Part shown: piece after piece, positions 5,847 to 22,136 of the stretch
How the letters are laid out: the number at the start of each line of letters is the position of its first letter
Position numbering within the stretch: the first letter of the stretch is position 1
Source: a virus
IMG/VR virus record: IMGVR_UViG_3300043543_000413
Coordinates: 1-24,769 of that record
DNA: 24,769 nt
Reading direction: 5' to 3' (one strand)
Made by a program: the position numbers and the translations under genes
The notes under the pieces: model-generated
What the model was told of the DNA's origin: nothing
Database searches by the model: none
What the model saw: only the letters and a program-made list of their open reading frames with translations

Positions 5847-6809
5847 TCACGTCGTCTGGAGATCGCGGATGGCCCCCTGCCGACCCGGGTGACGGCAGAT
5901 CAGGTTCGCATAGGTCTTGATCACGAACTCCTTGCGGTCCGTGTTCACCGGAACCTCTTCCGTCTCGAAGGGCAGGAGTACCTCGTAGCTCCAGTCACGC
6001 TTGTCGATCCAGAACATGGCACCGGGTGCCATGCGCGGGATCACCATGACCGGGATCGAGTCGTACTCCAGAGCCTCGAAACCGCCATCAGCCTTGGTCA
6101 CGTTCACCCAGCGCCGCCGGTCCTCGAGAAGGTTCCCATACTGGTCGAAATGGACGCGGCTGGTCAGGATGAACGAGATCTCGGCCTCCCGCTCCGGTTG
6201 CTCGAGCTGGGCCCGCATCTGCTGGAAGAGGCCCATCGTGAGGGCTCGCGGCGTTCCACCGTTGGACAGCACCACGCTCCGCCACCACGTCGCCGCGGTG
6301 CGGTTGATCGTGGCGTAGACACCGGTATCCCGGATGATGTCCCCCAGGGAGTCCATCTCGACGCGGGCATACTCGTCGGAGACGGTGTTGGGGTTGATGT
6401 TCAGAAGATGCCCATCGATCCGGTACAGGAGGTCCAGCGATGCACGGCGGGCCTCCTCAGCCAGGACGCGCACCAGAGCCGCTTGATCCGAATTGGTCGC
6501 CGCGATGGCCAGACCAGATGCACCATAGGTGATGCGGGCCATCTTGAACGGCTTGCGCGCCCTCTCGTAGGCCTGCTTGCCGGGCTCGTCGATCACGTCG
6601 TCTTCCTTGTAGAAGACGGCGCTGTTGTTTCGGTCATAGTGGACGATCCACTGTGCCTCGTGACCAGTACAGCTCTTCGTCCCGAAGAGCTTGACCAGCG
6701 TTACCCGCTCCCCGAGAGCACGCACAAACGGTTTCTCGAAGTGCTCCCGGAAGATCTTGGCGAGATCGGTGAGTGCACCTGCCCCGGTATAGACTCGCGG
6801 ACTAGCCAT
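5847..6809 (-). CDS. Major capsid protein
   Basis: 320 residues, ATG with GGGAGGG upstream. The length, the position right after a scaffold-like gene, and the sequence character all fit an HK97-fold major capsid protein. There is an N-terminal helical arm (ALTDLAKIFREHFEKPFVRAL), an acidic loop with YKEDDVIDEPGK, and a long spine-like helix (DQAALVRVLAEEARRASLDLLYR). Near the C-terminus come MVIPRMAPGAMFWIDKRDWSYEVL and a final beta strand (RKEFVIKTYANLICRHP). No N-terminal delta domain and no prohead protease gene are seen, so a separate scaffold is likely used. A strong hairpin terminator follows, as expected for the most abundant product. Confidence 0.85.
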   Translation of the reverse strand: MASPRVYTGAGALTDLAKIFREHFEKPFVRALGERVTLVKLFGTKSCTGHEAQWIVHYDRNNSAVFYKEDDVIDEPGKQAYERARKPFKMARITYGASGLAIAATNSDQAALVRVLAEEARRASLDLLYRIDGHLLNINPNTVSDEYARVEMDSLGDIIRDTGVYATINRTAATWWRSVVLSNGGTPRALTMGLFQQMRAQLEQPEREAEISFILTSRVHFDQYGNLLEDRRRWVNVTKADGGFEALEYDSIPVMVIPRMAPGAMFWIDKRDWSYEVLLPFETEEVPVNTDRKEFVIKTYANLICRHPGRQGAIRDLQTT

Positions 6810-6844: not shown

Positions 6845-7522
6845 TCAGCGTCCCTGGAGCGTCCTCACGATGGCCTCCACCGCCTCGTCGAATGTCTCGA
6901 CGGAGCGTGGACCAGCGCCACCCGCCGTACCCTCGAATTTGTCGGCTCGCTCCGCCTTGCGCTGGCTCTTGGCAGCCTGCCGCCGGATCTGAGCCAGTTC
7001 GCGGGCTACCATCTCCATCGCGTAGGGATCGTTGATCTGATACAGCCGCTCCGCCGGTACGCCGTAGCGCTGCGAGAGCGTCATGACCACCAGATGTTTG
7101 GCGAGTTCCTGCAACTGCTGCTCCGCGTAGGAGAGCTGTGCAGCCTTCTCGCGCATCATGAGATCCGCGTAGAGCTGCTGCGCTACCTGAGGGCGCTCCT
7201 CCTCGGGCACCTGCTCCAGCTGCTGCTGGAGGATGTACTGCTGGAGTTGCGCCTCCAGCCGCCCCTTCTCGAGTTCCAGGGCCCGGCGCGCCTCCACTTC
7301 GCGCTGGATCCGCGCCTGCAAACCCTTGAAGCGTCGTTCCCACTCCTCTGCCCGCTTCCGGTACACCTCGGGATCGGCTGCCTCCTCTCCCGCGGCAGCT
7401 TCCATCTCCTCCGGTGTTTCGGAAACACCCGTTCCAGCGAGACCCTCGTCCTCGAGGGGAAGCGCTTGGCTTTCCTCGGGATCCAGGGCTCCGGTGACGG
7501 CGGGGAACGTCATCTCGTCCAT
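6845..7522 (-). CDS. Scaffolding protein
   Basis: 225 residues, ATG with AAGGAGG eight bases upstream. Residues 1-50 are acidic and low-complexity. Residues about 52-135 form a long Glu/Gln/Arg-rich coiled coil (EVYRKRAEEWERRF, then QLQQYILQQQLEQVPEEE). A further helical part and a C-terminal basic segment (KSQRKAERADKFEG) follow, then a short amphipathic tail. Acidic start, coiled coil and basic end are usual for scaffolds, whose C-terminus binds the capsid shell. It sits directly upstream of the major capsid gene, and the pair is bracketed by hairpins. Confidence 0.8.
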   Translation of the reverse strand: MDEMTFPAVTGALDPEESQALPLEDEGLAGTGVSETPEEMEAAAGEEAADPEVYRKRAEEWERRFKGLQARIQREVEARRALELEKGRLEAQLQQYILQQQLEQVPEEERPQVAQQLYADLMMREKAAQLSYAEQQLQELAKHLVVMTLSQRYGVPAERLYQINDPYAMEMVARELAQIRRQAAKSQRKAERADKFEGTAGGAGPRSVETFDEAVEAIVRTLQGR

Positions 7523-7599: not shown

Positions 7600-10500
7600 C
7601 TAACGCTGTGTCGCATACCAGTACGCCTCGGGAGTTCTTCGGATTCCAGGCGGTTGCTGTCGCACCCACTCGAAGTAGCGGCGCAACTCCGGATCCTTCT
7701 GGATCATCTCTTCCTGCATCCCCGGCGGCATGAGCGAGAGCGCTTGCACCTTGGCGACGAGTCTCTCCGGACCCGGCTTCCAGGAGAGCGGTGCGTAGGC
7801 CGCCCCGATCCACCCCTGCTGGGCGAGCCCGCTCATGGTTCCGCGGGGGAGTTCACTGGTGGGCGGGAGCTTAGCCCGCTCCCCGCGGACCCGCCGCTCC
7901 GTCTCGCCCAGGAACTTCACCGGTACCGGGAGCGTCATCCCCACCAGTTCCTGCGCCAAGAGCTGCCGCCGGACATCCGCCCAGGCGCGCTGGAAGATGG
8001 GGCTCTCGGGATCGTCGAGAGCTGCCAGATACGCCGGGTCGGCAGCCCTCCCGGTCTCCTCCACCGACAACTCCAGGATCCGTTTCTTGACCAGGTAGTC
8101 GGTATAACCGGATCCCGTCAGCGTCTCAGGCTTGCCGCGGAGTCTCCGGATCCCCTCCCGCAAAGGCTGCTCCACGTCCAGGCCCGTCACCTGCGTCACC
8201 ATCCCCGAGTGCCGGAGCAACCGCATCGGCTCCCACTCCTCACCCAGGACTCCGGCGATCCCTAGCGGGATCTCCGCCCAGGGAGCCAGCCCGAGTCCCA
8301 CTCGCGAGGCGTGAGCCTCCAGGCGCGCCAGGAGCGGTGCATCATCCGGGATGTACCGGTACTTGAGCTGGTCCGCGATGGAGAGCGCCACTATCGGATT
8401 GGCATAGGCCACCCCTGGACCGAAGAGCCACCCCAGGAGTGGCACCGGCATGGTATCGGTGAACCGCCTCGGCAAGCCCAGGCGCTCCCGCTCATCCTCG
8501 GCGATCTGGTGGTAGCTCTCCCAGGCTCTCAGGAGCCAGGGATGCTGCCCCAAGGTCTCCAGGTAGAACGGGACGTTCCTCGTCGCCCAAAAATGGAACG
8601 GCGCCCAGGCGCGGATACCCAGCCACCTCTCGATGTTCTTCTCGTCTCCGTAGTCGAAGAAGAGGCGACGCGCCAACTCCTCGCCACGGCTCGAGGACAT
8701 CGCCTGCACCCGGCTCCAGGCCGCTGCCAGCTCCGCTGCCTGCTCCGGAGTTCCCCCCACCCGGCGCACTGCCTCCTCCAGTTGCCGCACCGAGAAGACC
8801 ACCCCGTGCTCCGTCGCATCCAACATCCGGATGAGACGGTTGCCGCGGCTGGTTCCCAGCGCCTGGCGCACCAGCCCATCGAAGGCTGGTCTAGCCTCGC
8901 GCAGCTGGCGCAGCGTCTCGCTGATCCAGGCCGCGCTCCGGAAGCTGGACTCCACCGCTTGCCCGATGCGGCGGTTGAACTGCACCAGCTTCTCGGCTCC
9001 CGCACCGAGGCGGCGGGAGAACCGCGAGAGGAGCGTGCCCAGCGCCGTCTCTGCCTGCGGGGAGGCGAACTCCTCCCAGACGGTGGTCTGCGGCCTCCAG
9101 AGCACCGAGTCCGGGATCGGGATGCCCAGACGCTCCGCAAGGGTGAAGGCGCTCCGCCCTACCGCTGGATTGACGCCGTGGAGCACTGCCTTCACCGTCG
9201 AGTCGAGAATGTTCTGGGCATGGTAGCGCGGCGTCAGCAATGCCTGCTCCCGCCAGGCTCGGAGCGGCAGCGATTGCCCGATGCGACTCAGAGCGCGCAC
9301 CACTACCGGATCCTTCCCGACGCGCAGGATCTTGCTCATCTCCTCAGCATAAGCCTCGATGAGCCCTTCCCGGCGCGCCTGCCCGACGGTCCGCCCCAGT
9401 ACATCCTCGCTCACCTCGTCAGGCTTTACCCCGATCATCTCGAGGAAGTTGTCGATGACGCGGCGCTGGTTCTCGTCAGCGAACCGCCTGGCCACCAGGA
9501 CGTCGCGGAGCGTCGCTGCCGGTGCAGTCAGATCGGGAGCCATCGGCTCCCTCTCTGCGATGCGCTGCCCGATATCCGAGAGAGCCTGCCTCGCCTCCTG
9601 GAACGTCTCCTCGAGTTTCCGCACCTGCGGCAGCGCTCCTGCCTCGCGGAGAACCCGGACCATCTCGTCAGGCAGGACGCTCCCGTACCAGCTGCGCGCC
9701 AAACCCCCTTGCACCTGGCTGCGGAGGCGGCGAGTGCGCGGAAGCAAGCGGTCCAGGAGGCGCTGCGCTACCGGGAAGCGGACTCCGAAGGCCGCCCAGG
9801 TATCGCCGACCTCCCGGAGCAGCGCTGCCACCTGATTGCGCGCCTCCGCCGGTGTGCGAGCTCGCAGAGCCTTCACCACCATTGGACGGAGGTGCGGAAG
9901 CCAGAGCGAAACCGCCGCCAGTGGCTGGTTCTCGTCCCCGAAGGTCCTCCTCAGGAGATCCGCCACCATGTCCAGGTTGCGGTCCGGTAGGCGCTCCTCG
10001 GCCACGATTTGCGACAAGACCTCGCGGAGATCCTCCCCTGCCAGAGGGCGGATGGCCGGTCCCGGCTTGCGCGTCGCCAGGCGCGCCGCCTCGACGGTAG
10101 CCTCCTCGGATACCTCCTGTGCGATCCGGTCTCCGAAACGAGCCTGGACGACGAGCCCAGCATCGGGCCCCAGGACACCCGCCTTCTCGAGCAACCACTC
10201 CAGGTGCCCGAGTTCCCGCTGGGAGAGGCTGCGCAGCTTGCCGTCGGATCCCACGCGGCCCAGGATCTGCTCCACTCCTGGTGCCCAGTCGTTCCCCGAC
10301 AAGATGTAGCGCACCGCCTTGTCGAAGAGCGCTCCCTTCATGCGCGGGTTGAAGTCGAGTGGCCCTCTACCCTCGGCGTCGAAGAGGGGACGACCTGCTA
10401 CCTCCGGGTTGGGATCACCCGCCTCGTAAGCGAGACGCTTCGTCTTCCGGATCTCGCGTAGTGTCTTCCGGATCTCCTCCTCGCTACGAGGGCGGACCTC

Positions 10501-13500
10501 CTCCCAGAGCTCTCGCTGCTCCGCACTCTTCCGGGTTCTCGCCAACGCAGACTGCACTGCCTCCTCGGCTGCGCGGAGCTGCTCAGGTGAAGCCGGTACC
10601 AGAGATCCCGGTTCCACCTCGAAATCCTTGGGCCAGGTTCCATCGTCCAACCGCACCGAGAACTTGACGACACCCTCAGGGGTATCGACCTCGGTGAAGT
10701 AGAGACGCTCCGGACCTTGTATCGACGTCTCTCCTGTCGCCTGGACCACATGCCCGCGGTGAGGACCGCTGGTGTAGACCAGACCCTTCTTCCCGACGAG
10801 AACCGACTCCTGGTCGTACTTGGCCCCCAGCTCCAAGGCATCCCGCTCACGCATACCGGGAACCAGGAACGAGTGCTCGACGACACCCTCCTCCGAGTAC
10901 CTCCCCCGCACCGGGATAGCCTCGTATCCGCGGCTCCGGAGATCCTCGAAGAGGTCCTGGCGCCGCCGGATCAACTCCTCCTCGGGGAGACCGGTCTTGT
11001 CGGAGGTCAGGACCACGTAGTCTCCGCTCTCCAGAAGTTCCCGCAGCCGCTTCGGTACCGGAGCTGCGGGGAGAGCGAGATCTTGCAAGAGCTCCCTGGC
11101 CACCTCCGGCGTCAGTTCCTCGCGAGGAAGACCGCGACGATAGGCGACCTCGGCGATGCGCCGGTAGCGCTCCAGCGTCTCCCGCAGAGGCTCCGGTATT
11201 GCACCCGTGGCCAAGAGTCTCTCGAAACCGCGAGCAAACGCCTCCTCTTGCGGTGCAGCCTCTTCGGCGAAGATACCAGCCCCTCGCGTCACGTAACGCA
11301 AAAGGTGCGCGAGCTCATGCGGGAGCGTCGTGATGTCGGCTCGCGGCGTCAAGTAGATCACCGGACCATCCGGAGTCAGCTCCAGGAAACCGCGCACCCG
11401 CTGCAACCCCTGGTAGAGCCGCGGGTAGAGGGCATCGACGATGGTACTCGCATCGTCGCTCCGGAGAATGCCGCGCTCCGCTACCCGCGAGAGTGCCTCC
11501 CGGATCTGGGCATCCCGCTGGGCGATGTCGCTGGGCATCCAGAGGTCCCATTTGGACAGGATCTTCCGGATGCCGCTGGCATCACCCTCGAGGAGGGACC
11601 GCACCACCTCACCGAGACCGCGTTTCACCCCCTCTCCCTCGATGCGGATGATCTGCCAGAGACCGGCTTGCAGGGCCGCCAGGTTGGGGTAGAGCTGGGA
11701 GAGAACCGGATCGCGTTGCACACGCCGCCAGAGCTCCCGCAGGAGAACCCGCTCCGCCACAGCCCGGATGGGTGATGCTGCGCTCTCCGCCTCGGCCACC
11801 GCCTGTTCATAGGGAATCCCCGAGAGGAGCGCGATGTCGCGGCGGATCCAGCGATCCAGCGCTGCCGCCTCGATCTCCCGCTCAGCACGCTTGATGAAGT
11901 CCAGAACCTCCTTCTCGGGAACCCCAGCTTGCCGCATGGCCACAGCCTGGTCGAAGATGTCGGCGTAGCGGTCCACCACCCAGGTGTAGTTCATGAGCTT
12001 GTCGAGGTAGGGAGACGGTTGCCCCGGCTTGGGAACCAGGCGCGCTAGATCCGGTGCCCGCCTCCAAAACGGCTCCGCGAAGTTCGTGACATCGGCGAAG
12101 GCGCTGTCCGGCAAGAGACCTGGGAAGCCCAACAAGAGGAAGCGCCGGAACTCGTCGAAACCGCTCTGCAACATACCCGCTGGGTGACGCCCCTCCGAGA
12201 GCTGGTCCAGCCAGCCCGCGACGGCCCGGAGATTGAGGAGCGGGCTCGCACCCTTGCCACCAGCTGCCCAGGGCGCTAGCGCGAAGTCGCGGGTATCGCG
12301 GTTCTCGAGAAGATGCCGCACCAGCTTGGCCGCTTCCTCGGGAACCAGGTAGCCAGCCTCATCGGCGCGGTTGAGGTCGATGCCCAGACGCTCCGCGAGA
12401 GCAGGATCCACGCGATCTGCCCGCGTGATCCCCAGCGTCCTCGCCGCATCCAAGAGTGGGTTCACTGGCTGCTCCGGGATGACGAACTTGGTCACCCCGG
12501 TGAGACGGTTCACGGAACGCTGCCGCGGTGGACGGTAGGGTACCTCCCCGATGCGTGCCATCGCCTCGCGGAATACCGGTTCCGGTATCGCTTCGGTGGG
12601 ACGGAAGCGATACCCCATCTCCTTGAGAACCTCGTTCAGGCGCTTGGCCTCAGCCTCGGAGAGGTACACTGCGCGCCGATAGGCGGGATCGACGTTGCTG
12701 GGATCCGCCAGGCGCTGGATGGCTTCCGAGGGGAGACCTTGTCCTCGCGGGAAGAGCCGCGAGAACCAGGCGCCAGCATCCCGATACCAGGCCCCGGCCT
12801 CCTTGGCCATCTTCTCGCCCATGGCCTCGGAGCCGACTCGCAAGCGGCGCAGCCAGCGCTCCACCGCATCGGGTGGGTGGCTGAGATGCTGGAGAGCCGA
12901 AGCGACGAGCTCCTCGTCAGGATGCTCCGGGACGTAATCGGGATCCTCCAGCATCTTCCGCGTGACCTCTTCGACGGTCTGGAAGAGCTTGGCAGCACCC
13001 CGCTCACCCTCCTCGAAGGAGGGGCGGATCTTCATCATCCCGTAGACCTCGTCGAGGTCCTTGAACTTCCCAGGATTCTGGGCAAAGGTCGCCACCGCTA
13101 TCGAGTCGAGGAGACGGTGCAGCGTCTCGCGTGCCGGGGTGGGGAACTCCCGGGTGAGGAGCGCGTCGTCCAGCTCCAGGTGCACGCGCATCCGCTCCGA
13201 TGGACGCAGGGTGATCCGGTTTCCCTCGCGAACCTCCTGGAGCAATCCGCGTTCCAGGAGCTCACGCTTCACCTCGATGAGCGGTTCCCTCGCCTCGGGG
13301 CGCAAGGAAGCCTCCCGCGAGAGCGCATCCCAGGCCCGCGTCACGCTCACGCTGTCTGTCCCGCGGATGATGTCGCGCACCTGCTCCCGCGGTTGCCCCA
13401 CCAAACGCTCTGCCCACTCTTCCCGGGCTATCCGCGCAACTTCCCCTTCCGGTTCCAGAAAGTGCTCGATTCCACGGCTCTCCGCCTCTTGGAGAGCGCG

Positions 13501-14190
13501 CCGGAAGCGCTGGACATTCTCGCGGAGCTGGGCAGCAGGCGATTTTGCGAAGAGCGGCTTTCCCGTGATCCGCTCCAGGGCACGGGCTCCGCGGCGGAGA
13601 CCGGCCAGCGGCACCGTCACCGGGAGTGCCAGCACGCGTCCCGAGAGCTCGTCGGTAGCCGTCGCCACGTCGAAGACCTTGGCGAGGGCTGGTGACCTCT
13701 CGAGGAGGCGCGCTACCTTGGGGACCTTCCCGACCTTGCCGACCAAACCCACCCCGGCCAGGTTCAGGGGGTCGAAGATGATCTCCGAGGCCAGCTTGAG
13801 CCAGGGGTGACCTTCCATGGCGATGTTCCAGGCCTCGGTGAAGCTTTCGGCCTCGCGGACACGGGGATCCTCCGAGATCTGCTTGACGTACCACCCCAGC
13901 GCTGGGCGCGTCACGAACTTGTTGCCGACATCGAGGATCCACCCCGCAGCCGAAAGAGCCGCCGAAAGCGGGTTCTTCTGTGTCGGCTCTGGCTGCACTG
14001 GGCTCGCCGCTGCTACCGGTGTCGCTCCCCTCGTTGCCGCACTCGTCGGAGAGACGAAACTCGGTAGCTGTGGTTGCGGTGAGGGCACTGGCCGCAACCG
14101 TGGAGCGGTTTCCAGACCACTCGGCTGCGCAGCGCTGCCTCTCACCTCCGAGAGAGCCTCTGCGAAGAGGCGACGTTCCAGTTCCCCCAT
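7600..14190 (-). CDS. Giant multidomain virion or polyvalent protein with zincin domain
   Basis: 2196 residues. The ATG at 14190 is chosen for its AAGGAGG; an in-frame GTG lies 21 bases upstream. Residues about 20-72 are a Pro/Ala/Ser linker. Residues about 920-990 hold a metallopeptidase (zincin) signature: VIYLTPRADITTLP then H958-E-L-A-H962, with E982/E983 as possible third ligand. Residues about 1055-1140 resemble the DUF3293-type domain (D1057-YVVLT, then SFLVPGM and YDQESVLVG). Around 1650 is LLTPRYHAQNIL, and near 1863-1872 PFHFWATRN, both like the C-terminal domains of large phage polyvalent proteins. The rest is mainly helical. Such proteins are known from phages and conjugative elements and are thought to enter the recipient cell with the DNA. 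Position between lysin and scaffold suggests packaging in the capsid. Alternative: a purely structural internal core protein. The zincin motif is clear; the other domain calls are moderate. Confidence 0.7.
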   Translation of the reverse strand: MGELERRLFAEALSEVRGSAAQPSGLETAPRLRPVPSPQPQLPSFVSPTSAATRGATPVAAASPVQPEPTQKNPLSAALSAAGWILDVGNKFVTRPALGWYVKQISEDPRVREAESFTEAWNIAMEGHPWLKLASEIIFDPLNLAGVGLVGKVGKVPKVARLLERSPALAKVFDVATATDELSGRVLALPVTVPLAGLRRGARALERITGKPLFAKSPAAQLRENVQRFRRALQEAESRGIEHFLEPEGEVARIAREEWAERLVGQPREQVRDIIRGTDSVSVTRAWDALSREASLRPEAREPLIEVKRELLERGLLQEVREGNRITLRPSERMRVHLELDDALLTREFPTPARETLHRLLDSIAVATFAQNPGKFKDLDEVYGMMKIRPSFEEGERGAAKLFQTVEEVTRKMLEDPDYVPEHPDEELVASALQHLSHPPDAVERWLRRLRVGSEAMGEKMAKEAGAWYRDAGAWFSRLFPRGQGLPSEAIQRLADPSNVDPAYRRAVYLSEAEAKRLNEVLKEMGYRFRPTEAIPEPVFREAMARIGEVPYRPPRQRSVNRLTGVTKFVIPEQPVNPLLDAARTLGITRADRVDPALAERLGIDLNRADEAGYLVPEEAAKLVRHLLENRDTRDFALAPWAAGGKGASPLLNLRAVAGWLDQLSEGRHPAGMLQSGFDEFRRFLLLGFPGLLPDSAFADVTNFAEPFWRRAPDLARLVPKPGQPSPYLDKLMNYTWVVDRYADIFDQAVAMRQAGVPEKEVLDFIKRAEREIEAAALDRWIRRDIALLSGIPYEQAVAEAESAASPIRAVAERVLLRELWRRVQRDPVLSQLYPNLAALQAGLWQIIRIEGEGVKRGLGEVVRSLLEGDASGIRKILSKWDLWMPSDIAQRDAQIREALSRVAERGILRSDDASTIVDALYPRLYQGLQRVRGFLELTPDGPVIYLTPRADITTLPHELAHLLRYVTRGAGIFAEEAAPQEEAFARGFERLLATGAIPEPLRETLERYRRIAEVAYRRGLPREELTPEVARELLQDLALPAAPVPKRLRELLESGDYVVLTSDKTGLPEEELIRRRQDLFEDLRSRGYEAIPVRGRYSEEGVVEHSFLVPGMRERDALELGAKYDQESVLVGKKGLVYTSGPHRGHVVQATGETSIQGPERLYFTEVDTPEGVVKFSVRLDDGTWPKDFEVEPGSLVPASPEQLRAAEEAVQSALARTRKSAEQRELWEEVRPRSEEEIRKTLREIRKTKRLAYEAGDPNPEVAGRPLFDAEGRGPLDFNPRMKGALFDKAVRYILSGNDWAPGVEQILGRVGSDGKLRSLSQRELGHLEWLLEKAGVLGPDAGLVVQARFGDRIAQEVSEEATVEAARLATRKPGPAIRPLAGEDLREVLSQIVAEERLPDRNLDMVADLLRRTFGDENQPLAAVSLWLPHLRPMVVKALRARTPAEARNQVAALLREVGDTWAAFGVRFPVAQRLLDRLLPRTRRLRSQVQGGLARSWYGSVLPDEMVRVLREAGALPQVRKLEETFQEARQALSDIGQRIAEREPMAPDLTAPAATLRDVLVARRFADENQRRVIDNFLEMIGVKPDEVSEDVLGRTVGQARREGLIEAYAEEMSKILRVGKDPVVVRALSRIGQSLPLRAWREQALLTPRYHAQNILDSTVKAVLHGVNPAVGRSAFTLAERLGIPIPDSVLWRPQTTVWEEFASPQAETALGTLLSRFSRRLGAGAEKLVQFNRRIGQAVESSFRSAAWISETLRQLREARPAFDGLVRQALGTSRGNRLIRMLDATEHGVVFSVRQLEEAVRRVGGTPEQAAELAAAWSRVQAMSSSRGEELARRLFFDYGDEKNIERWLGIRAWAPFHFWATRNVPFYLETLGQHPWLLRAWESYHQIAEDERERLGLPRRFTDTMPVPLLGWLFGPGVAYANPIVALSIADQLKYRYIPDDAPLLARLEAHASRVGLGLAPWAEIPLGIAGVLGEEWEPMRLLRHSGMVTQVTGLDVEQPLREGIRRLRGKPETLTGSGYTDYLVKKRILELSVEETGRAADPAYLAALDDPESPIFQRAWADVRRQLLAQELVGMTLPVPVKFLGETERRVRGERAKLPPTSELPRGTMSGLAQQGWIGAAYAPLSWKPGPERLVAKVQALSLMPPGMQEEMIQKDPELRRYFEWVRQQPPGIRRTPEAYWYATQR

Positions 14191-14223
14191 CGCCCCTCCT
14201 TCCCTGTTCACGATGGTCCAGCA

Positions 14224-15402
14224 TCAGAAGACGAGGTAGTTCCGTGGGTCGATGATCTTCCCGCTTGCATCTCGCATCTCGAGATGGACATGCGGTCCTG
14301 TCGAGTATCCGGTGTTGCCGGAGAGCCCCAGGAAGGCTCCCGCATCGACGCGCTGCCCAGGGCGAACCGCCACCGCGGAGAGGTGACCGAGGAGCAGGAT
14401 CTTGCCATCGTCCAGCCGGATGGTTACCGATTGGCCGTAACCACCGTTCCAACCTGCCTGGACCACCACCCCGCGGAAGGGGCTGAAGAGGCGCATCCCA
14501 CTGGGTACACCGATGTCGATACCGGTGTGATAACCGGATTTGTACATCGACGGGTTGTGGTTCGCATACTCCTGGGTGATGGGGAAGCGCTGGCCACCGA
14601 AGATCGACCACACGCTTCCAGCCTTCACCATGCCGCTGGGTTGCCCGAGGTTATCGAGTTTGGTCAACGTGTTGCGGAACTTCTCGACGTACTGGTATCC
14701 CGTGGTACCCAGTGCGTCGCGGGCACCGGTGACGTTACCGCGGGCATCGACAGCACCGAAATAGGCCGCGGCTGCCCTCTCCCAGGAGCCGTAGCGACGG
14801 TACAGCTCCGCCAGGAAATCGGCTGCCGTGAAGACATTGACCCGCGGATCCCAGAGGTCGCCACCATACTTGGCTGCCCTCCCGGCATGGTAATTGGGCA
14901 TGACCTGCATCAACCCCACCGCTCCCTGGGGTGAGCGCACCTTCGGGTTTCCACCGCTCTCGATGGCCATGATGGCACCCAGGACCTGCCAGGGAACCCC
15001 GAACTTCCGCTCCGCCTCCTCCAGCAACGGCTTCCACTGGAGGATACCGCCGATATCGGCACCGTACTCTGGATTGCCGGTGGGGAGACGCTTCATCCCC
15101 GGCAAACGCTCTCGCGCTGCCAAGAGCAGGGCATCGCGGAGGCGCTGTTCTGGGCTCTTGCGGATCCCGTAGGCCACATCGTAGCCGATGCCGTAGCGCG
15201 ACAACGGTGCTACCGGCTCGCGTATGCCATAGAGGACATCGTAGCCAGCCGGTGCCCTCTGCGAGAACGGTGTCAGCATGCCCTGGCGACTGAGCTCCGC
15301 TTGCATGAAGGGCGGAACTCCACGGTCCCCACGCAGGAAGGGTGACACCGGGGGGAGCAGGACCGCGTCGCCAAATGGCTTGACCCGATCCCCGAACAGC
15401 AT
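14224..15402 (-). CDS. Virion-associated lysin: transglycosylase fused to M23 peptidase
   Basis: 392 residues, ATG with GAGGTG upstream. Residues about 125-250 form a lytic transglycosylase (SLT, goose-lysozyme-like) domain with catalytic E148 in AIESGGNP, followed by GAVGLMQVMP and AAAAYFGA. Residues about 280-385 form an M23 (LytM/gp13-type) endopeptidase domain with zinc ligands H292 and D296 (HTGIDIG) and H371-V-H373 (GPHVHLE). The first domain cuts glycan strands and the second cuts peptide cross-links. The N-terminal 100 residues have two similar YGI(R/G) stretches and no signal peptide, so delivery in the virion is likelier than secretion. Neighbouring genes are presumed inner virion proteins. 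All key catalytic residues of both domains are present, so it should be active during DNA entry, and could also help lysis. Confidence 0.88.
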   Translation of the reverse strand: MLFGDRVKPFGDAVLLPPVSPFLRGDRGVPPFMQAELSRQGMLTPFSQRAPAGYDVLYGIREPVAPLSRYGIGYDVAYGIRKSPEQRLRDALLLAARERLPGMKRLPTGNPEYGADIGGILQWKPLLEEAERKFGVPWQVLGAIMAIESGGNPKVRSPQGAVGLMQVMPNYHAGRAAKYGGDLWDPRVNVFTAADFLAELYRRYGSWERAAAAYFGAVDARGNVTGARDALGTTGYQYVEKFRNTLTKLDNLGQPSGMVKAGSVWSIFGGQRFPITQEYANHNPSMYKSGYHTGIDIGVPSGMRLFSPFRGVVVQAGWNGGYGQSVTIRLDDGKILLLGHLSAVAVRPGQRVDAGAFLGLSGNTGYSTGPHVHLEMRDASGKIIDPRNYLVF

Positions 15403-15414
15403 GGTGTCACCTCA

Positions 15415-16134
15415 TCATCTGCCGAAGTAGCGGTCTATGAAGCCGGTGCCGGTCAGGAACTCGAGGAAACTCATGCCTTGCGCATTGGCGCTCCCGTAGT
15501 AGCGGATGTAGTCATCCAGCTTCTGTGCCAGGTCCTGGCGAGCAACCCGCTGCCAGGTCGGTGTCAACCACAGTGGCCCCAGGTTCTGCAGGATGTCATC
15601 GACCAAGCGGTACTGATCCTCGAAGTCGCCGTATTGCTCACCTGGCACGAAGTTGCGCAAGGCTTGCCCGATGGCTCGGCGCGACAACTGCGTTCCCACC
15701 AAGCTACTCGGGCTCTGCAGCAAGAGTTGCGGGAGCTGCTGGGCGAAGGCCAAGAACCCTGCCGCTTGCGACTCCTGGTTCGCCGAAGGCGGATTCAAGA
15801 TGTCGTAGACGAGACGGAGCCCCGGCGCCACGCTGGTGGCGAAGCTCGTGAAGGGGTTGGTCACATGCGTCGAGTACCCCATCTCGGCCAGGCGCTGCGT
15901 GATCGCCGCCGTCGGGTACCGGTAGAACCAGCTCTGTTGCCAGATGTTCCCGGTGATCGGGCCGAAGAGCGGAGCACCGCGTGGATTGACCTGGAACTGT
16001 GCACCGTACACCGGCCTGCCAGCTTGCGTGACCTGCTGGAACAGCTGTTGCTGCTGTTGCTGCGCCTGTGCTCCAGCCTGGAGCGCACTCGGATCGTAGG
16101 GATTGTACCACGGTGAACCCAATTGACCCGGCAT
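15415..16134 (-). CDS. Unrecognised virion-type protein, Gln-rich N-terminus
   Basis: 239 residues, ATG with AGGAGGAG upstream. Residues 20-40 contain a run of six Gln after an Ala/Gln segment (GAQAQ), followed by a Pro/Gly/aromatic-rich part (GPITGNIWQQSWFYRYP). The rest is helical with Gln and Leu (FLAFAQQLPQLLLQSP), and the protein ends LTGTGFIDRYFGR. No signal peptide and no recognised domain. Gln/Ala-rich helical proteins next to a virion lysin are typical of inner core or ejection proteins of short-tailed phages, and this is my inference from context only. Confidence 0.6.
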   Translation of the reverse strand: MPGQLGSPWYNPYDPSALQAGAQAQQQQQQLFQQVTQAGRPVYGAQFQVNPRGAPLFGPITGNIWQQSWFYRYPTAAITQRLAEMGYSTHVTNPFTSFATSVAPGLRLVYDILNPPSANQESQAAGFLAFAQQLPQLLLQSPSSLVGTQLSRRAIGQALRNFVPGEQYGDFEDQYRLVDDILQNLGPLWLTPTWQRVARQDLAQKLDDYIRYYGSANAQGMSFLEFLTGTGFIDRYFGR

Positions 16135-16147
16135 CGTCTCCTCCTGT

Positions 16148-16507
16148 TCACACGAATGCGAACCAGCGCAATGGTCGCTGGTAGAGTCTCAGCTCCAACC
16201 CTCGCATCGCTGGCGTCAGCGTCGCCAGCAGCCGGTTGGGATCCAATGTGCTCAGATACTCCACCCAGTCGGGTGCCGTCGGTCCCTCGAGGGCACTCCG
16301 TGCCTGGTAGCCGCGGTAGATGATGGGAAAGAGCCGCTCCAGCCCGGCCCGCTGCGCTAGGCTGGGAGCGAGCTCCCGCAACCACAGCTCATAGGCTGCC
16401 TGCGGCTCCTGCTCCAGATACCCTCTCGTGAAGATGGCGTAGAGCGGTACTTGACCAGCCCAATCTGCGGCGGAGAGACGGGGAAGGCGTACCGCGTAGT
16501 TGGCCAC
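16148..16507 (-). CDS. Unrecognised small protein in the inner-virion cassette
   Basis: 119 residues, starting at a GTG with GGGGAGG about nine bases upstream. It is mainly helical and rich in Leu, Ala, Arg and aromatic residues (QAAYELWLRELAPSLAQRAG, LRLYQRPLRWFAFV at the end). It has neither a membrane segment nor a known motif. Spacing to its neighbours is 13-22 bases, so it is a real member of the operon between portal and lysin. Confidence 0.6.
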   Translation of the reverse strand: MANYAVRLPRLSAADWAGQVPLYAIFTRGYLEQEPQAAYELWLRELAPSLAQRAGLERLFPIIYRGYQARSALEGPTAPDWVEYLSTLDPNRLLATLTPAMRGLELRLYQRPLRWFAFV

Positions 16508-16529
16508 GACTCACCACCTCCCCTCGCGA

Positions 16530-16946
16530 TCAGAACGGTCTCCCCGGCATCAGGGATGAAGGTGGAATCATCCGCATCTCGGATGGCCACACCCGATCCC
16601 GGATGGAGGGTGGTAGCATGGAGGGGTCGATCCGCCGACGGTTGGTCAAAACCCGCTGCACCTGCTCCACCAGGTCGCGGAAGGATTCAGCACCCGCTTG
16701 CTCCATCGAAGCCCCCGGGAACTCGGGTACCATCATGGGCGCTGGAGCCATGCTAACTCGTGGCCCCTGCTCCATCACCTGTTGCAGCAGCATCGCCAGA
16801 TGGTTCCACACCCCCTCGGTACCCAACATCTCTTGGTTCTGCAGCAACCAACGGATGAACGGCGAGGAGATCATCCGCCCCGGCATATCTGGTGTCATGG
16901 TGCCGAGGTAGGGAGCGCTCCCACTGGTGGGTGTCATGCGAAACAC
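16530..16946 (-). CDS. Unrecognised Met/Pro-rich small protein
   Basis: 138 residues. The GTG at 16946 is preferred because AAGGGGG lies seven bases upstream; an ATG three codons later is possible. The sequence is unusually rich in Met and Pro (MTPDMPGRM, MAPAPMMVPEFP, MLPPSI, MRMIPPSSLMPGRPF at the end), with one helix (FRDLVEQVQRVLTNRRR). Such composition is seen in flexible virion linkers, but I do not recognise the family. Confidence 0.55.
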   Translation of the reverse strand: MFRMTPTSGSAPYLGTMTPDMPGRMISSPFIRWLLQNQEMLGTEGVWNHLAMLLQQVMEQGPRVSMAPAPMMVPEFPGASMEQAGAESFRDLVEQVQRVLTNRRRIDPSMLPPSIRDRVWPSEMRMIPPSSLMPGRPF

Positions 16947-16968
16947 AGTCGATCCCCCTTTCGCGAGG

Positions 16969-18096
16969 TCAGGCTAACGGATCATACCCGACGTTCCACA
17001 GGAACTCGGCGAAGTCCTGGAGCTGCCCATAGCTCCTCCACTGTCGCTCCAGCTCCCTGAGCCCCTCCCGCTTGCGCCGCATCTCCTCCTCGCTCACTCC
17101 GTACCGTCGCAACAGCGGCTCGATCCCCTGCTCCCAGTAGAGTTCCGCTACCGACGCTCCCGGCGTCGCAGCAGCTCGCCGGGCTGCCAAACGCAGCGCT
17201 TGCCCCCTCTCGGTGGTCACACCCAACACATCGAGAACATCTTGTTGCTTGCGATAGAGGGCGATCCAGTCGGGTGCGCGAGAAGGAGTCGTCATGACCT
17301 GGCTGGCGGGGGCGCTGACACCAGCGCGGTTCTGGTAGAGCTGCCAGAGCGCGTAGGTCGGCTGGACACCCACCGCTTGCATCGCCTCCGGACTCGGGTA
17401 GTAACCCAGGAGCACCTGGTCCGGTATCGGCTTCCCATCCGCCAGTGCCTCGGTAGCCTTGCCCACATTGGGTGGTTTGCTCCCGATCAGTGGCCGGTCC
17501 GCATTGGCCACCACCTCGGCAGGAGCCAGGAAGTAGGTGGGATCGAGACCACTCTTGCGGAGATCCTCGATGGTCGGTGCCATGCCCATCGCTATCTGGT
17601 CCGGAACCGGTGTCACCGGTATCGGCTCCTGGTAGAGCGAGGCGCTCCGAGGACGTTGACCATTCGCTCCCTGCATCGTGTAGGTAGGGCGCATGCCGCG
17701 CTGCGTCAGCTCTTGCAGAGTGCGCGCTTGGCCGGTCAGAACCTGATCCGGAACCGGCTGCGCTGCAAACGGTTCCGCCAGCGAGGCTCGCGGCGGTGTC
17801 GGAGCCGCTTGCACTGCCGGAGCGCGCCCCATTGTCCGCTGCGCGGCGACGAAGTTGGGATCGCTCCAGGGATCATAGGGGCGAAACTCCGGTACCTCCG
17901 CTGGCTCGCCAGTCAGGAACGAGGTCAGCAAGGCACCCGGGTAGGAGAGACCGACGTTCAATCCCTGCAGAACCGCCGATGCCCCCTGGTGGGTACGCCC
18001 TGCCAACGAGACTGCGCCAGCCCCCGTCTGCTCGGCCAGCCACTTCAACCAGTTCCCCACATCCCTCGCCGTGATCGGCGCCATGACCGTCGGCAT
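16969..18096 (-). CDS. Repeat-containing protein next to the portal, probable inner virion protein
   Basis: 375 residues, ATG with GGAGGTAGCGT upstream. Residues 1-65 are helical with small hydrophobic residues (LNVGLSYPGALLTSFLTG). Residues 114-139, 163-188 and 223-248 are three 26-residue repeats with consensus P(V/I)PDQ(V/I)--G--PT-E-L---G--PTY. A possible decayed fourth (APDWIAL...LGV) lies near 274-293. The C-terminal 80 residues are charged and helical (SEEEMRRKREGLRELERQW). It starts twelve bases after the portal stop. Position suggests a portal-bound or ejected protein, while the repeats look like short linear binding modules joined by flexible linkers. No known family. Confidence 0.65.
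   Translation of the reverse strand: MPTVMAPITARDVGNWLKWLAEQTGAGAVSLAGRTHQGASAVLQGLNVGLSYPGALLTSFLTGEPAEVPEFRPYDPWSDPNFVAAQRTMGRAPAVQAAPTPPRASLAEPFAAQPVPDQVLTGQARTLQELTQRGMRPTYTMQGANGQRPRSASLYQEPIPVTPVPDQIAMGMAPTIEDLRKSGLDPTYFLAPAEVVANADRPLIGSKPPNVGKATEALADGKPIPDQVLLGYYPSPEAMQAVGVQPTYALWQLYQNRAGVSAPASQVMTTPSRAPDWIALYRKQQDVLDVLGVTTERGQALRLAARRAAATPGASVAELYWEQGIEPLLRRYGVSEEEMRRKREGLRELERQWRSYGQLQDFAEFLWNVGYDPLA
17353..17757 (-). repeat. Three 26-residue P-[VI]-P-D-Q repeats
   Basis: Units lie at 17680-17757, 17533-17610 and 17353-17430. They start PVPDQVLTG, PVPDQIAMG and PIPDQVLLG and end MRPTY, LDPTY and VQPTY. Each is exactly 26 residues with linkers of 23 and 34 residues. The DNA has diverged more than the protein, so selection is acting on the protein motif. 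Confidence 0.85.
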
Positions 18097-18107
18097 ACGC
18101 TACCTCC

Positions 18108-20027
18108 TCACACCAACCCCGGAATCTCCCCCGCTCCCGGCAGTGGCTCCACTCCCGCGACACCCGGCGGCGCTTGCTCACCTTGACCACCAGCTACCGA
18201 GGCCTGCGAGTGCTGCAAGAGGTTCATGAGTGTCGCCATCTGTGGGGGCAAGACCTGCGGCGGCGGTGTCGCCACTGAACCCGCTGTCGGGGGAGCGCCG
18301 GTCTCCGCAGCCGGTACAGTTGCACGCTTCTCTCGTTCTCGCAACTCCTTTTCGAGTTTGGCCTGTCTCCAGAGTTCGTAGAGCACCGGGTCAGTACGCG
18401 CCAGAGCCCAGGGAACCAGGACCTCGCGGGTGACCTCGGGATCGAGGTACGCGAGATCCGCCAAAACCCTCTCGTTTTCCCGCTGCGGATTCTCGATACC
18501 CAGGAACTCGTCGCGTGCCGTCTCCAGCGAGATCAACTTCTTGTCGGTAAGCAATGCCGCCAACTGAGCCATCTGGACACGATCCCGCGGAGCCACCTTG
18601 CGGAAGCGGACTACGGTGCGCGTTCCCACCGCTGCCACGAGATCCGGGGTGATGGCGTTGCCCGCTACCAGGCGGCCCGTCAGGGGATCGCGCACCAGGT
18701 AGCCGACAGGACCGTCATGGAGATCCCGGATCAACTCCAGTGCACGCTGGTTCACCTGCTCGATCACCTGCTCCAGGACACGCGTGAGCGGGTGCAGCGT
18801 ATCCATGGCCGCGTCGGTCTGGAGCGTCAGCGCGAAACCAGAACCCTGGCCGACACCCCACAAGACTCCGGGGAGACCACCCTTCTCCACATCCTCCAGA
18901 AGAGCTTGCATCACCGGAGCCGCATTGGCCGGGTTCGGTGTCACCTGCAAGACCTCGACGCGCTCTCTGTCGAAGTACAAGAAGTTGGTGGCTCCCGCCG
19001 AGAGCTTGATGGGCTGCGGATTCTCGGGGCGAGCCGGGTCGTAGTAGTAGACGGTAGGCGGGTTGGCTACCCTCGCCACCTCCGTCGCCAGCTGCGAGAT
19101 CAAGCGATTCAGCTGGCGATAAGCACGCTTGATCCCATGGAAGATGGAGACGCCCACCTCTTGCGTCCAGTGCAGCTGGTCGCGGGTGGTGGCCCGGATG
19201 GGTGCTCCCAGCCCCGTAGCCACGATCCAGGGAACGAAACCATAACCGTGCTCCGTCGGTGGCTTGATCTCGATACCGTCCACCTCCAGCGTGTGCCACC
19301 AGTCGTCGTAGTAGGCCATGACCTCGACGATATCTTCCTCGTCTCGCCCCTGGAGTGCCTTCTCCGCCTCCGGCCACTCGTCCAGGATCTCTCCTGCCGT
19401 CGCCCAGTAGCGGTGCACCACGTAGCGGAGACCGTTGGCTCCCAGCTGCGGGTAGACCTGACGCGGATCGCAGACATAGAGATCCACCGGAAGCTCACCC
19501 GCCGGTGCATCCGCGTTGTAGGAGATCCGGATCGTCACCCAGCCGCGGAGACAGAGGAAGTGCGCGATGTCGCGCAACAGTGGGCCATGCAGGGCCTGCA
19601 TCCAGCGGCGATCCCAAACCTCCCACGCGTAGCGCAGGAAGTCCTCCACCGCTTGCGCCGCTTCCCGCAAACGGTTGTCGGGAGGAACCGTATCGATGGA
19701 CGGTAACTGCTTGGAGAGGATCGAGGATGCCTTCTCCACCAGAACCCAGGGGATGTTGCGGGTCACCACCTCGCCCTCGCCCTGGGGGATCTCGCTCATG
19801 CGATAGAGAGCCAGATCTTCGTCCATCCGCTGGTCACGCAGAGACCAGAACTCGGTAGCACGTTGCACCAGCGTCTGGATCTGTTCCCGCTTCGGCTTGC
19901 GCCTTCGTGGACGCCGCTCTCCCTCGGGGATCGATGGCTCCATGAGATCCTGGACCTCGGCCATCCCCTCGGCGATCCGCCACAAACCCTCCGGGTTCTC
20001 TTCCTCTCGCTGCGGGGGCAGTACCAT
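18108..20027 (-). CDS. Portal protein
   Basis: 639 residues, ATG with AAAGGAGGG upstream. It lies directly after the large terminase, where portals usually lie, and its sequence fits. An N-terminal charged region (RRPRRRKPKREQ) leads into FWSLRDQRMDEDLALYRM, the alpha/beta wing with DPRQVYPQLGANGLRYVVHRY, and a long clip/stem part (IKRAYRQLNRLISQLATEVARV). PGVLWGVGQGSGFALTLQTD and a helical crown region follow. From about residue 568 the tail is disordered and Pro/Ala/Gly/Gln-rich. Twelve such subunits would form the ring through which DNA enters and leaves the capsid and to which TerL docks. Length is within the usual portal range. Confidence 0.85.
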   Translation of the reverse strand: MVLPPQREEENPEGLWRIAEGMAEVQDLMEPSIPEGERRPRRRKPKREQIQTLVQRATEFWSLRDQRMDEDLALYRMSEIPQGEGEVVTRNIPWVLVEKASSILSKQLPSIDTVPPDNRLREAAQAVEDFLRYAWEVWDRRWMQALHGPLLRDIAHFLCLRGWVTIRISYNADAPAGELPVDLYVCDPRQVYPQLGANGLRYVVHRYWATAGEILDEWPEAEKALQGRDEEDIVEVMAYYDDWWHTLEVDGIEIKPPTEHGYGFVPWIVATGLGAPIRATTRDQLHWTQEVGVSIFHGIKRAYRQLNRLISQLATEVARVANPPTVYYYDPARPENPQPIKLSAGATNFLYFDRERVEVLQVTPNPANAAPVMQALLEDVEKGGLPGVLWGVGQGSGFALTLQTDAAMDTLHPLTRVLEQVIEQVNQRALELIRDLHDGPVGYLVRDPLTGRLVAGNAITPDLVAAVGTRTVVRFRKVAPRDRVQMAQLAALLTDKKLISLETARDEFLGIENPQRENERVLADLAYLDPEVTREVLVPWALARTDPVLYELWRQAKLEKELREREKRATVPAAETGAPPTAGSVATPPPQVLPPQMATLMNLLQHSQASVAGGQGEQAPPGVAGVEPLPGAGEIPGLV

Positions 20028-20040
20028 GTGCCCTCCTTTC

Positions 20041-21585
20041 TCACCAGGCGTCGTAAGCCATGCGCTGGATCACCGGATCGGGACGCTCCAGACGCCGGAA
20101 CGGTGGCAAGTTCACGAAGAAGTACTCCGCCGCGCTCCTGAGATGGGAGGTGCCGTCGTGGATGGGCCTGCCTCGCTCATCCTTGCGGGCACGGCTCATC
20201 GCCTCATCGACGATGGAGGCATCGACGGCACCGCCAGGGTTCACGTTGACCACCACGCGGCGGATCCCGATCTCCGTCAGCTGCTTGCGCGTCAAGTAAT
20301 CCCGCGCCTTCTGATTGGTGAAGACGTAGATGCCATGCTGCTTCAGGATATCCAGAACCGAGAGCCCGGTACCGACATGACGGTTTCCACCCGCCGGATC
20401 ACCGAAGTGGATCGGCTTTGCCCAGCGGCGGTGGGCCCGGATCTTCGCTTTTTCGTCCTCCGTGTAGAGATGCTCCCGCTCTGGCTCCAGCTCCCCCGTC
20501 ACGAAGGGGATGAACCAATCGACAGGCCTGTCGCGGCGCTGGATGGCATCCAGGCAGACCACCTCGTCGTTTTCGCGGTCTACCTGCCACCAGATGATGC
20601 AGGTGGTATCCAGCCCGAAATCCCAGCTGCAGTAGAGCAGGCGGTTGGGATCGTAGTCGCGCCGCTCACGAAGGACTCCCTGCCAACCTGGGTAGACCAG
20701 ATCCCCTCGGTCCACGTAGGGATCCATCTCGAGTTCCTGCAAGATCTCCTCGCGTGTCTTTCGCTCCAGCTGCCGCTGGTACCAGGCTTCATCCTTGCGC
20801 GGGTGCAAGCGCCAGTGGAGCTGCAACCGCGGGATCTGCCCCGACTCCCAGAGACGCCAGAACAGGTTGTCGGCTCCGTTGACGGTGGAGACAGCGATGC
20901 GACAACGCGAAGCCTCGGAGGCGGAGCGCCAGGCCCTCTCCTGCGTGTTCTTCTCCCAGTGCGCCAGCTCGTCGATGAAGATCACCGAGAACCGTCCCTG
21001 GCGCCCAAAATTCCCCTGCGAGGACTCCCCTTTGATGGCCGAACCGTTCTCGGGATTGAGGAGCTTCATGTGGAAGCGATGCTTCTTGGGCTGGAATCCC
21101 TGCGGCTTGAGCCAGGAGGGGAGACGCTCCAACATGTAGTCGATTCTCCCGAAGTGGGAATCGACCAAACGGTTGTCCACCAGATCCTCGGTTCGGGAGC
21201 CGATGAGGGCCTGGAAACCGTCGTCGAAGAGCCAGTGCCACAGGATCCAGGCCATCGCTACCCAGCTCGCACCCATGTCGCGAGACTTCAGGACGATCCC
21301 GTCCTCCTGGTTGCGATAACGCTCCTCGTACCAGCGGATGAGATCCACCTGGTAACCCCAGAGGATGAACGGAAGATGCGGAGTCCTGCCACTGTCCAGT
21401 TCCCGCGGATCGAAGGTCCACAGCGCGAAGTTGCAGAACCAGGCTGGATCCTCCCGGCAACGGCGACGGATCTCCTCGCGCAGCATCGGATCCCGCTGCG
21501 CTTGCACCGTGAGCAGAGCACGCTCACGGAGATCCGGAGGACGCTCCGGGATCAGGATCCGACCTCGTGGAGACGCGCTAGCCAC
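20041..21585 (-). CDS. terL: Terminase large subunit
   Basis: 514 residues from the GTG at 21585, chosen because GAGGAG lies eight bases upstream; another in-frame GTG is at 21594. The ATPase domain has a terminase-type Walker A, VLKSRDMGASW (K100), and Walker B, FSVIFIDELAHW (D205-E206), with a coupling motif near AVSTVNGADN. The C-terminal nuclease domain has acidic residues D322 (SWDFGLDTT) and D396 (HFGDPAGG), and a further candidate in the region of VDEAMSRARKD. It translocates DNA into the prohead through the portal and cuts the concatemer. The start overlaps the small terminase gene by about 34 bases, so the two are coupled. All motor and nuclease motifs are intact. Confidence 0.95.
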   Translation of the reverse strand: MASASPRGRILIPERPPDLRERALLTVQAQRDPMLREEIRRRCREDPAWFCNFALWTFDPRELDSGRTPHLPFILWGYQVDLIRWYEERYRNQEDGIVLKSRDMGASWVAMAWILWHWLFDDGFQALIGSRTEDLVDNRLVDSHFGRIDYMLERLPSWLKPQGFQPKKHRFHMKLLNPENGSAIKGESSQGNFGRQGRFSVIFIDELAHWEKNTQERAWRSASEASRCRIAVSTVNGADNLFWRLWESGQIPRLQLHWRLHPRKDEAWYQRQLERKTREEILQELEMDPYVDRGDLVYPGWQGVLRERRDYDPNRLLYCSWDFGLDTTCIIWWQVDRENDEVVCLDAIQRRDRPVDWFIPFVTGELEPEREHLYTEDEKAKIRAHRRWAKPIHFGDPAGGNRHVGTGLSVLDILKQHGIYVFTNQKARDYLTRKQLTEIGIRRVVVNVNPGGAVDASIVDEAMSRARKDERGRPIHDGTSHLRSAAEYFFVNLPPFRRLERPDPVIQRMAYDAW

Positions 21586-22136
21586 CGTGCCCACTCCTCT
21601 TCCGAGGCATCATCCGGTGGGAGTGCTCCCATGATCTCCGCCTCCCGCTCTTGCCGTTGCTCCGTCTCGCGCAGGACCTCCCGCGTCATCGTGGTGGTGG
21701 AGAGCCTCACGATACCGACACGATCAAGCCAGGTCTCGATAGCCTTGAGCCTGATCTCTTGTCTCCCCTCGCGGAGCAGCGTTTCCAGTTGCTCCACCAC
21801 CAGCGGTGCCAGAACCGCCAGGTCCTCCAACACCCGCCCCCGCAGGGTGGAGAGGTTGCGGAGCTCTCGCTGCTGTTGCTCCGCATCGTATGCCTGCGCC
21901 TGCTCATACCAGCGATCCTCGCGAGACCACCGGTACAGGAGCTCCTTGTTGGTCGTGGGAATGTCCCGGCGCAGCCCGAGGCTGCCATCGGGATCGCGTC
22001 GGCGACGACTCACGTACTCCCGCCACAGGCTCTCCACGCTGCGCCGAGGGCCCATGGCGAGGAAGTCGGTGAGGGCACGCTGTCGCCGCAGATACTCCTT
22101 GGTTCCCGGATTGGCTCCGTAGATCTGAACCATCAT
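21552..22136 (-). CDS. terS: Terminase small subunit
   Basis: 194 residues, ATG overlapping the previous stop as ATGA, with GGAGG upstream. The N-terminal part (RSVESLWREYVSRRRRDP, then TTNKELLYRWSREDRWYEQAQAY) has the look of a helix-turn-helix that recognises phage DNA. It is followed by long helices for ring assembly (LEDLAVLAPLVVEQLETLLREGR) and an acidic C-terminus (DDASEEEWARWLARLHEVGS) of the kind that contacts TerL. Similar terminase proteins read WxxREDRWxxRxxxY. Its position directly before terL supports the call. Confidence 0.85.
   Translation of the reverse strand: MMVQIYGANPGTKEYLRRQRALTDFLAMGPRRSVESLWREYVSRRRRDPDGSLGLRRDIPTTNKELLYRWSREDRWYEQAQAYDAEQQQRELRNLSTLRGRVLEDLAVLAPLVVEQLETLLREGRQEIRLKAIETWLDRVGIVRLSTTTMTREVLRETEQRQEREAEIMGALPPDDASEEEWARWLARLHEVGS

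Follow-up and report, generated by a model that had tools for sequence, protein, structure and literature searches.

A predicted SAM-lyase-fold domain beside a zincin in a giant, putatively ejected protein encoded among the late genes of a phage

The stretch of DNA analyzed here, referred to as the window, is the whole IMG/VR virus record IMGVR_UViG_3300043543_000413 (24,769 nt). It includes a giant open reading frame (ORF) of 2,196 residues (positions 7600..14190), which is read on the minus strand, as are all the domains, motifs and neighboring late genes located below, from ATG 14190, with GGAGG upstream, to a stop codon at 7600–7602. Residue numbers are counted from this ATG; an alternative GTG start at 14211 would make the protein 7 residues longer. 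The giant protein lacks cysteine and is encoded among virion (late) genes, between portal and capsid. The searches gave two relatives of the whole protein, both 75% identical to it: one in the 54-kb IMG/VR record 3300020567_000320 (L002) and the other (L110) on contig BEIE01000004.1 of bacterium HR28. The original prediction for this locus had drawn attention to a HELAH motif at residues 958–962 and to two consecutive Glu at residues 982–983 of this ORF, and both were confirmed. We present evidence that unrelated enzymatic domains are combined in the chain, a zincin and, immediately downstream of it, a predicted domain with the fold of the S-adenosylmethionine (SAM) lyases. Judging from sequence comparisons and models, the latter domain, which had been missed in the original prediction, is better supported as an enzyme than the zincin and hints more specifically at function.

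When the giant was compared with Pfam, its two best matches were DUF3293 (35.9 bits; cut-off 25) and, more weakly, S-AdoMet_lyase (PF23780; 26.0 bits for the window and 28.1 for L002, with a cut-off of 28), overlapping at one place. A hidden Markov model (HMM) of the lyase domain was trained on nine domains from other phages, the window and L002 being left out. Upon searching the six frames of the window with it, a single significant place was obtained, corresponding to residues 1049–1182 of the giant (positions 10645..11046; 96.9 bits, E 1.5e-29), while shuffled sequences scored at most 1.6 bits. As 11 of the 12 aligned members match PF23780 and 10 of them match DUF3293, both families appear to describe one superfamily here. 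No paper mentioning DUF3293 was found in the literature searched, and the main text of the polyvalent-protein paper (PMC5512222) mentions neither a SAMase nor a lyase.

The conserved residues of the SAM lyase Svi3-3 are G56, Y58, E69 and Q104, with E105 (PMC7877911). According to the alignment, G56 and Y58 are equivalent to G1096 and Y1098 of the giant, within the triplet G1096-R-Y1098 (positions 10897..10905), catalytic E69 to E1105 (10876..10878), and Q104-E105 to Q1127-E1128 (10807..10812). Every residue that is invariant in SAM lyases is hence kept in the giant. The set G, Y, E, Q and E/D is retained in 11 of the 12 members, including T3 SAMase (represented in these comparisons by the deposited record L009), whereas in the remaining one, L019, G and Y are replaced by S and W. 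T3 SAMase aligns in the same columns, and its distance from the Tyr to the Glu is 11 residues, like that of Svi3-3.

The fold was then predicted for the domain with AlphaFold2 (AF2), which gave a model of the ferredoxin-like/PII-like SAM-lyase type with a pLDDT of 83.7. A Foldseek comparison with 350,542 PDB chains placed two structures of the T3 SAM lyase, 8bb1 and 7ock, first and second, and these were the sole two with E below 0.001. Alignment with VIA-align gave Z 12.5 for 8bb1 and 11.7 for 7ock, compared with 7.2 for the next, unrelated chain and 6.1 for Svi3-3; 8bb1 superposes over 119 residues (rmsd 2.9). Fold comparison is the only route that leads from the giant to the T3 SAM lyase in the PDB: profile searches of the PDB sequences gave no believable match, nor did phmmer with the whole giant, and a tblastn search of 50,697 phage records with the whole protein gave no match at all. 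In a library of viral structures, an ART-PolyVal-like giant and a structural protein of phage elemo ranked at the top, with phage SAM hydrolases lower. A 164-residue protein of Escherichia phage phiKT named "tail tape measure protein" (BFVD H6VUC5) also matches the SAM-lyase fold and is probably misnamed.

Comparison of the window with L002 showed that the lyase domain is the slowest-evolving part of the chain. Its dN/dS is 0.059, versus 0.165 for the zincin and 0.167 for the whole giant, and the lowest non-synonymous proportion among 207 tested segments of 134 residues is that of the one starting at residue 1051. Such strong constraint argues that the domain matters to the phage, whatever its role.

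The zincin-type metallopeptidase domain spans approximately residues 895–1035 (positions 11086..11508) and includes HELAH (11305..11319) and E982-E983 (11242..11247). As the composition of the giant predicts only 0.025 HExxH motifs, its occurrence by chance is unlikely. HELAH and E982/E983 are kept in the window, L002 and L110. The giants of the window, of Bordetella phage BPP-1 (Bbp10) and of a Nostoc phage have in common the pattern A-D-x-x-T-x-x-H-E-x-x-H, followed by E-x-x-A-R-x-x-E-x-x-L-x-x-G-x-x-P. In this alignment E983 coincides with the Glu of an E-x-[FW]-A-R motif, and it is therefore likely to be the third zinc ligand. A scan of IMG/VR gave 528 stretches with a Bbp10-like zincin, and in 80 of 80 fetched loci, with ORFs of 1,336–3,202 residues, HExxH is accompanied by E-x-[FWL]-A-R; as these loci were picked partly by those very motifs, this conservation is not fully independent. 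An HMM of the 80 zincins, built with the window excluded, scored 16.0 bits with the giant of the window and at most 1.9 bits in 200 shuffles, and hhalign aligned the window and L002 with the 80 zincins with a probability of 95.1 (P 3.3e-8). The zincin assignment of the original prediction is thus borne out by homology. The AF2 model of the zincin plus lyase segment, made from two sequences, has an overall pLDDT of 47, which is too poor to test the zinc site.

The gene order on the minus strand is as follows: small and large subunits of the terminase, portal, proteins of 375, 138, 119 and 239 residues, a lysin, the giant, a scaffold-like gene, the capsid gene, tail genes and fibre. Family matches back the portal protein (18108..20027; phrog_156, E 2.2e-4), the terminases (large subunit, 20041..21594), the lysin, the SU10-type major capsid protein (5847..6809) and the fibre. 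The neighbors are those named in the original prediction: the virion lysin (14224..15402) has transglycosylase SLT and peptidase M23 matches (E 1e-19 and 1.9e-25), and the scaffold-like protein (6845..7522) is assigned from its position only, with no above-chance family match. Among the tail genes, positions 1560–2102 of the window encode a 180-residue protein similar to phage HNH/homing endonucleases (phrog_559, E 1.9e-5).

Like the giant, the lysin and the four small proteins encoded between lysin and portal (15415..18096), which are candidate ejection partners, are free of cysteine. The six proteins together include no cysteine in 3,459 residues, compared with 19 in 3,918 for the other genes of the window (Fisher P 6e-6), and the cysteine-free block is repeated in L002 and L110. 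Cysteine-free composition is a mark noted here and not a published criterion; no paper stating such a mark for ejection proteins was found. As controls, the ejection proteins gp50, gp51 and gp52 of phage N4 have no cysteine in 4,294 residues, and gp15 and gp16 of T7 have none in 2,065, gp14 having 1. Most other virion proteins of N4 and T7 contain cysteine, with the N4 capsid protein and T7 gp9 as exceptions. Cysteine is also lacking in gp21 of Flavobacterium phage elemoA, in the Nostoc giant and in two further lyase-bearing giants (L011 and L015), while some Bbp10-like giants have up to 8. Besides its composition, the late-block location of the giant, with the lysin and the small proteins as neighbors, matches the position of ejection proteins in short-tailed phages. 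By analogy, and through this indirect argument, the six-gene block may be an ejection set; the ejected or internal virion role that had been proposed for the giant is supported by both its gene position and the composition of the block.

The window's phage group is temperate, since the contig of L002 encodes a tyrosine integrase and HR28 has a prophage belonging to the group. In L002, each of the 18 window genes that were tested has a counterpart, in the same order. The HR28 prophage spans from about 3 to 59 kb of the 277,650-base contig BEIE01000004.1, flanked by a formate-tetrahydrofolate ligase gene on one side and by acetyl-CoA carboxylase and transporter genes on the other; the loci L110 and L115–L117 of this contig correspond to a complete-looking prophage of about 56 kb located between metabolic genes. 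HR28 is a hot-spring bin of the HRbin series; the phage of the window is likewise taken to be a hot-spring phage, and its enzyme is probably thermophilic. Its genome encodes a 1,413-residue methylase (L118, 1200–5441) with DISARM DrmMI as best match and type IIG enzymes as second, adjoined by a helicase-C gene. This methylase is a candidate SAM-dependent defence, and shows merely that possible targets exist. The HR28 genome also includes a type III-B CRISPR locus (L114, 3530–10041) with Cas10/Cmr2, RAMP proteins and an effector of the CARF-HEPN Csx1/Csm6 type. The BREX marker PglZ was looked for in this genome and not found. As phage DNA methyltransferases would suffer from SAM loss, PF01555 and PF00145 were sought in the two phage records; neither was present in these records, both of which are possibly incomplete.

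The same domain occurs in other phages, mostly within giants. The 3,694-residue elemoA gp21, annotated as "Structural protein; DUF3293", has the lyase fold with an HExxH domain adjoining. The domain was also found in the giants L011–L013 (with two HExxH and LPD23), L014, L015 and L018, and in those of Nostoc and Microcystis phages; in Myxococcus phage Mx1, as in L016, it adjoins tail sheath genes, and in Aeromonas phage Atoyac15 it is a stand-alone gene. The Nostoc and Microcystis proteins (L021 and L022; 3,960 and 3,954 residues read) are labeled as a "lysin" with a beta/gamma crystallin motif, an annotation that looks misleading: they have a Bbp10-type zincin and a lyase-fold domain in which the catalytic Glu seems to be lost (GVDDGPSF). 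On a Sulfuricurvum plasmid, DUF3293 is encoded by a gene of its own (L107, 2905–3312) close to type I restriction-modification genes, which fits a SAM-related function of this domain. Apart from the lyase and zincin domains, the window giant showed no convincing homology to the other fetched giants, and the lyase-bearing giants thus look like independent assemblies.

Comparison with known systems shows both likenesses and differences. The T3 SAM lyase (gene 0.3; 8bb1, 7ock) and Svi3-3 (6znb) agree with the domain in fold and in all conserved catalytic positions, but they are small stand-alone proteins with about 20% identity and a longer Y-to-E loop, and the former, unlike the late-gene giant, is the first viral protein expressed after infection. 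Svi3-3 has a turnover of about 9.5 per second (PMC7877911). SAM-AMP lyases and the candidate AcrIIIB4 belong to the same superfamily and have the catalytic Glu and Gln of the giant (PMC12255297), but are stand-alone proteins or small fusions with a longer T-loop. Bbp10 (2,052 residues) and its relatives share a homologous zincin, a similar size and a late-gene position with the giant; Bbp10 differs in having LPD22 and PBECR1, in lacking a SAM-lyase domain, and in the rest of its chain, which shows no clear homology to the giant. Bbp10 (L020, 5769–11927), although labeled "crystallin" or "lysin", is a polyvalent protein in view of its LPD22, PBECR1 and zincin. Although polyvalent-domain Pfam models (LPD, PBECR etc.) gave no match in the window at E 10, these relatives support by association the polyvalent class that had been suggested for the giant, LPD22 and PBECR1 being present in Bbp10, which is related through the zincin, and LPD23 in L011, which is related through the lyase. 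ElemoA gp21 shares with the giant the lyase fold, a neighboring HExxH domain, the lack of cysteine and, in a podovirus, a structural annotation, but the domains are in reversed order (lyase, then HEIFH), the architecture is another one, and there is no homology elsewhere. The N4 virion RNA polymerase gp50, of which about 4 copies are packed per virion (PMC12633501), is likewise a giant, cysteine-free ejected protein, and its C-terminal domain has HExxH; unlike the window giant, its enzyme is an RNA polymerase and it has no SAM-lyase domain. A Bbp10-type family assignment for the zincin of the N4 polymerase was considered and rejected, as the profile does not match it (1.0 bit).

From these sequence and model comparisons, we consider it reasonably probable that the giant is an ejected polyvalent protein delivering a lyase of SAM or of a SAM derivative, and that the zincin may process the giant itself. 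The giant would be packaged in the capsid, and its ejection, along with that of the lysin and the small partners, would precede or accompany that of the DNA. In the cell, the SAM-lyase domain would split SAM or a SAM-derived molecule, and SAM-dependent defences (restriction-modification, systems of the DISARM/BREX type, SAM-AMP signalling) would be weakened before phage gene expression. Cleavage of the giant by the zincin might free the lyase domain and help in forming the trimers that known SAM lyases need, this being the least supported step.

Several points weigh against this interpretation. The Y-to-E loop has 7 residues in the window, compared with 11 in T3 SAMase and Svi3-3, and the substrate may therefore differ. 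With about 4 copies injected, 9.5 turnovers per second and a cellular SAM pool of roughly 1e5 molecules, consumption of the pool would take most of an hour even without resynthesis, so that bulk depletion of SAM is doubtful; unless the enzyme turns over much faster at its native temperature, its action would have to be local or its substrate scarce. Known SAM lyases form trimers, in which the active site lies at the subunit interface, and a 2,196-residue chain would have to assemble into trimers or be cut. The CARF-HEPN effector located beside Cas10 in HR28 points to cyclic oligoadenylate rather than to SAM-AMP as the signal there. The Nostoc phage copy apparently lacks the catalytic Glu. Finally, the zincin region of the two-sequence model has a pLDDT of about 26–45, its helix/strand order alone being as expected.

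An alternative is that the lyase-fold domain does not cleave SAM but is a PII-like binding or regulatory module, or a poison of SAM synthetase, the giant being mainly a channel former like T7 gp16. SAM lyases share their fold with the PII-like binding proteins (PMC7877911), T3 SAMase is also reported to inactivate SAM synthetase in heteropolymers (PMC8406200), catalytic depletion is hard for few copies at the known turnover, and the giant has a gene position comparable to those of T7 gp16 and N4 gp50. Yet few copies could poison just few synthetase molecules, and all catalytic positions are kept in a domain that evolves slower than the remainder of the giant, which is what a catalytic site would lead one to expect; we regard this explanation as unlikely. 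Equally unlikely in our view is that the molecule destroyed by the lyase domain is not SAM but a scarce signal derived from it, for instance SAM-AMP, the target of the phage candidate AcrIIIB4. A scarce substrate would suit an ejected protein, which is present in few copies, SAM-AMP lyases have the same fold with Glu and Gln (PMC12255297), and the T-loop length of the domain is unlike that of T3 SAMase and Svi3-3; the type III-B locus of HR28, however, adjoins a Csx1/Csm6-type effector, and hence points to another signal.

In the original prediction, the zincin was seen as an effector that might act upon entry by cutting a host protein of defence or transcription. In favor of this, the zincin is kept throughout the three relatives and in no fewer than 80 Bbp10-like giants, and polyvalent proteins have been proposed to act on host proteins (PMC5512222). 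No substrate is indicated, however; the authors of that same study prefer self-processing of the polypeptide as the role of zincins of this class (PMC5512222), and constraint is weaker on the zincin than on the lyase (dN/dS 0.165 vs 0.059). Nothing beyond the motif was found in support of cleavage of a host protein, which we consider somewhat less likely again than either of the two previous explanations; it is the part of the earlier interpretation that gained no support, while zincin, polyvalent class and ejection did. Least likely is that the giant is not ejected but acts in the tail or in assembly, like a tape measure protein, and that its two domains are relics. Its location in the structural operon, the vicinity of some lyase-domain relatives to tail sheath genes of contractile phages, and the seemingly Glu-less Nostoc copy would fit such a protein; strong purifying selection, with the catalytic residues intact in three relatives, and a cysteine-free block in common with known ejection proteins speak against it.

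Taking into account these alternatives, delivery of a SAM or SAM-derivative lyase by an ejected giant remains the interpretation that we favor. Polyvalent ejection proteins are a known kind; what is new is the predicted SAM-lyase-fold domain inside the giant of an ejection block, and with it a vague "polyvalent zincin" guess is narrowed to a specific enzyme. On a more general level, we tentatively propose, with confidence that stays somewhat below an even balance, that unrelated tailed phages carry a pre-made lyase of SAM or of a SAM derivative in giant, cysteine-poor ejected proteins, which would hit SAM-dependent immunity at DNA entry, before phage transcription. The cysteine-free block may in addition be a simple and general sequence-only marker of ejected phage proteins. 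If the proposal is true, DUF3293, a domain of unknown function present in giants of several phages, would be explained. The T3 SAM lyase acts only after transcription and translation; a lyase packed in the capsid would protect the incoming DNA earlier, and would represent a virion-delivered form of the T3 SAMase strategy, with DUF3293 as its signature.

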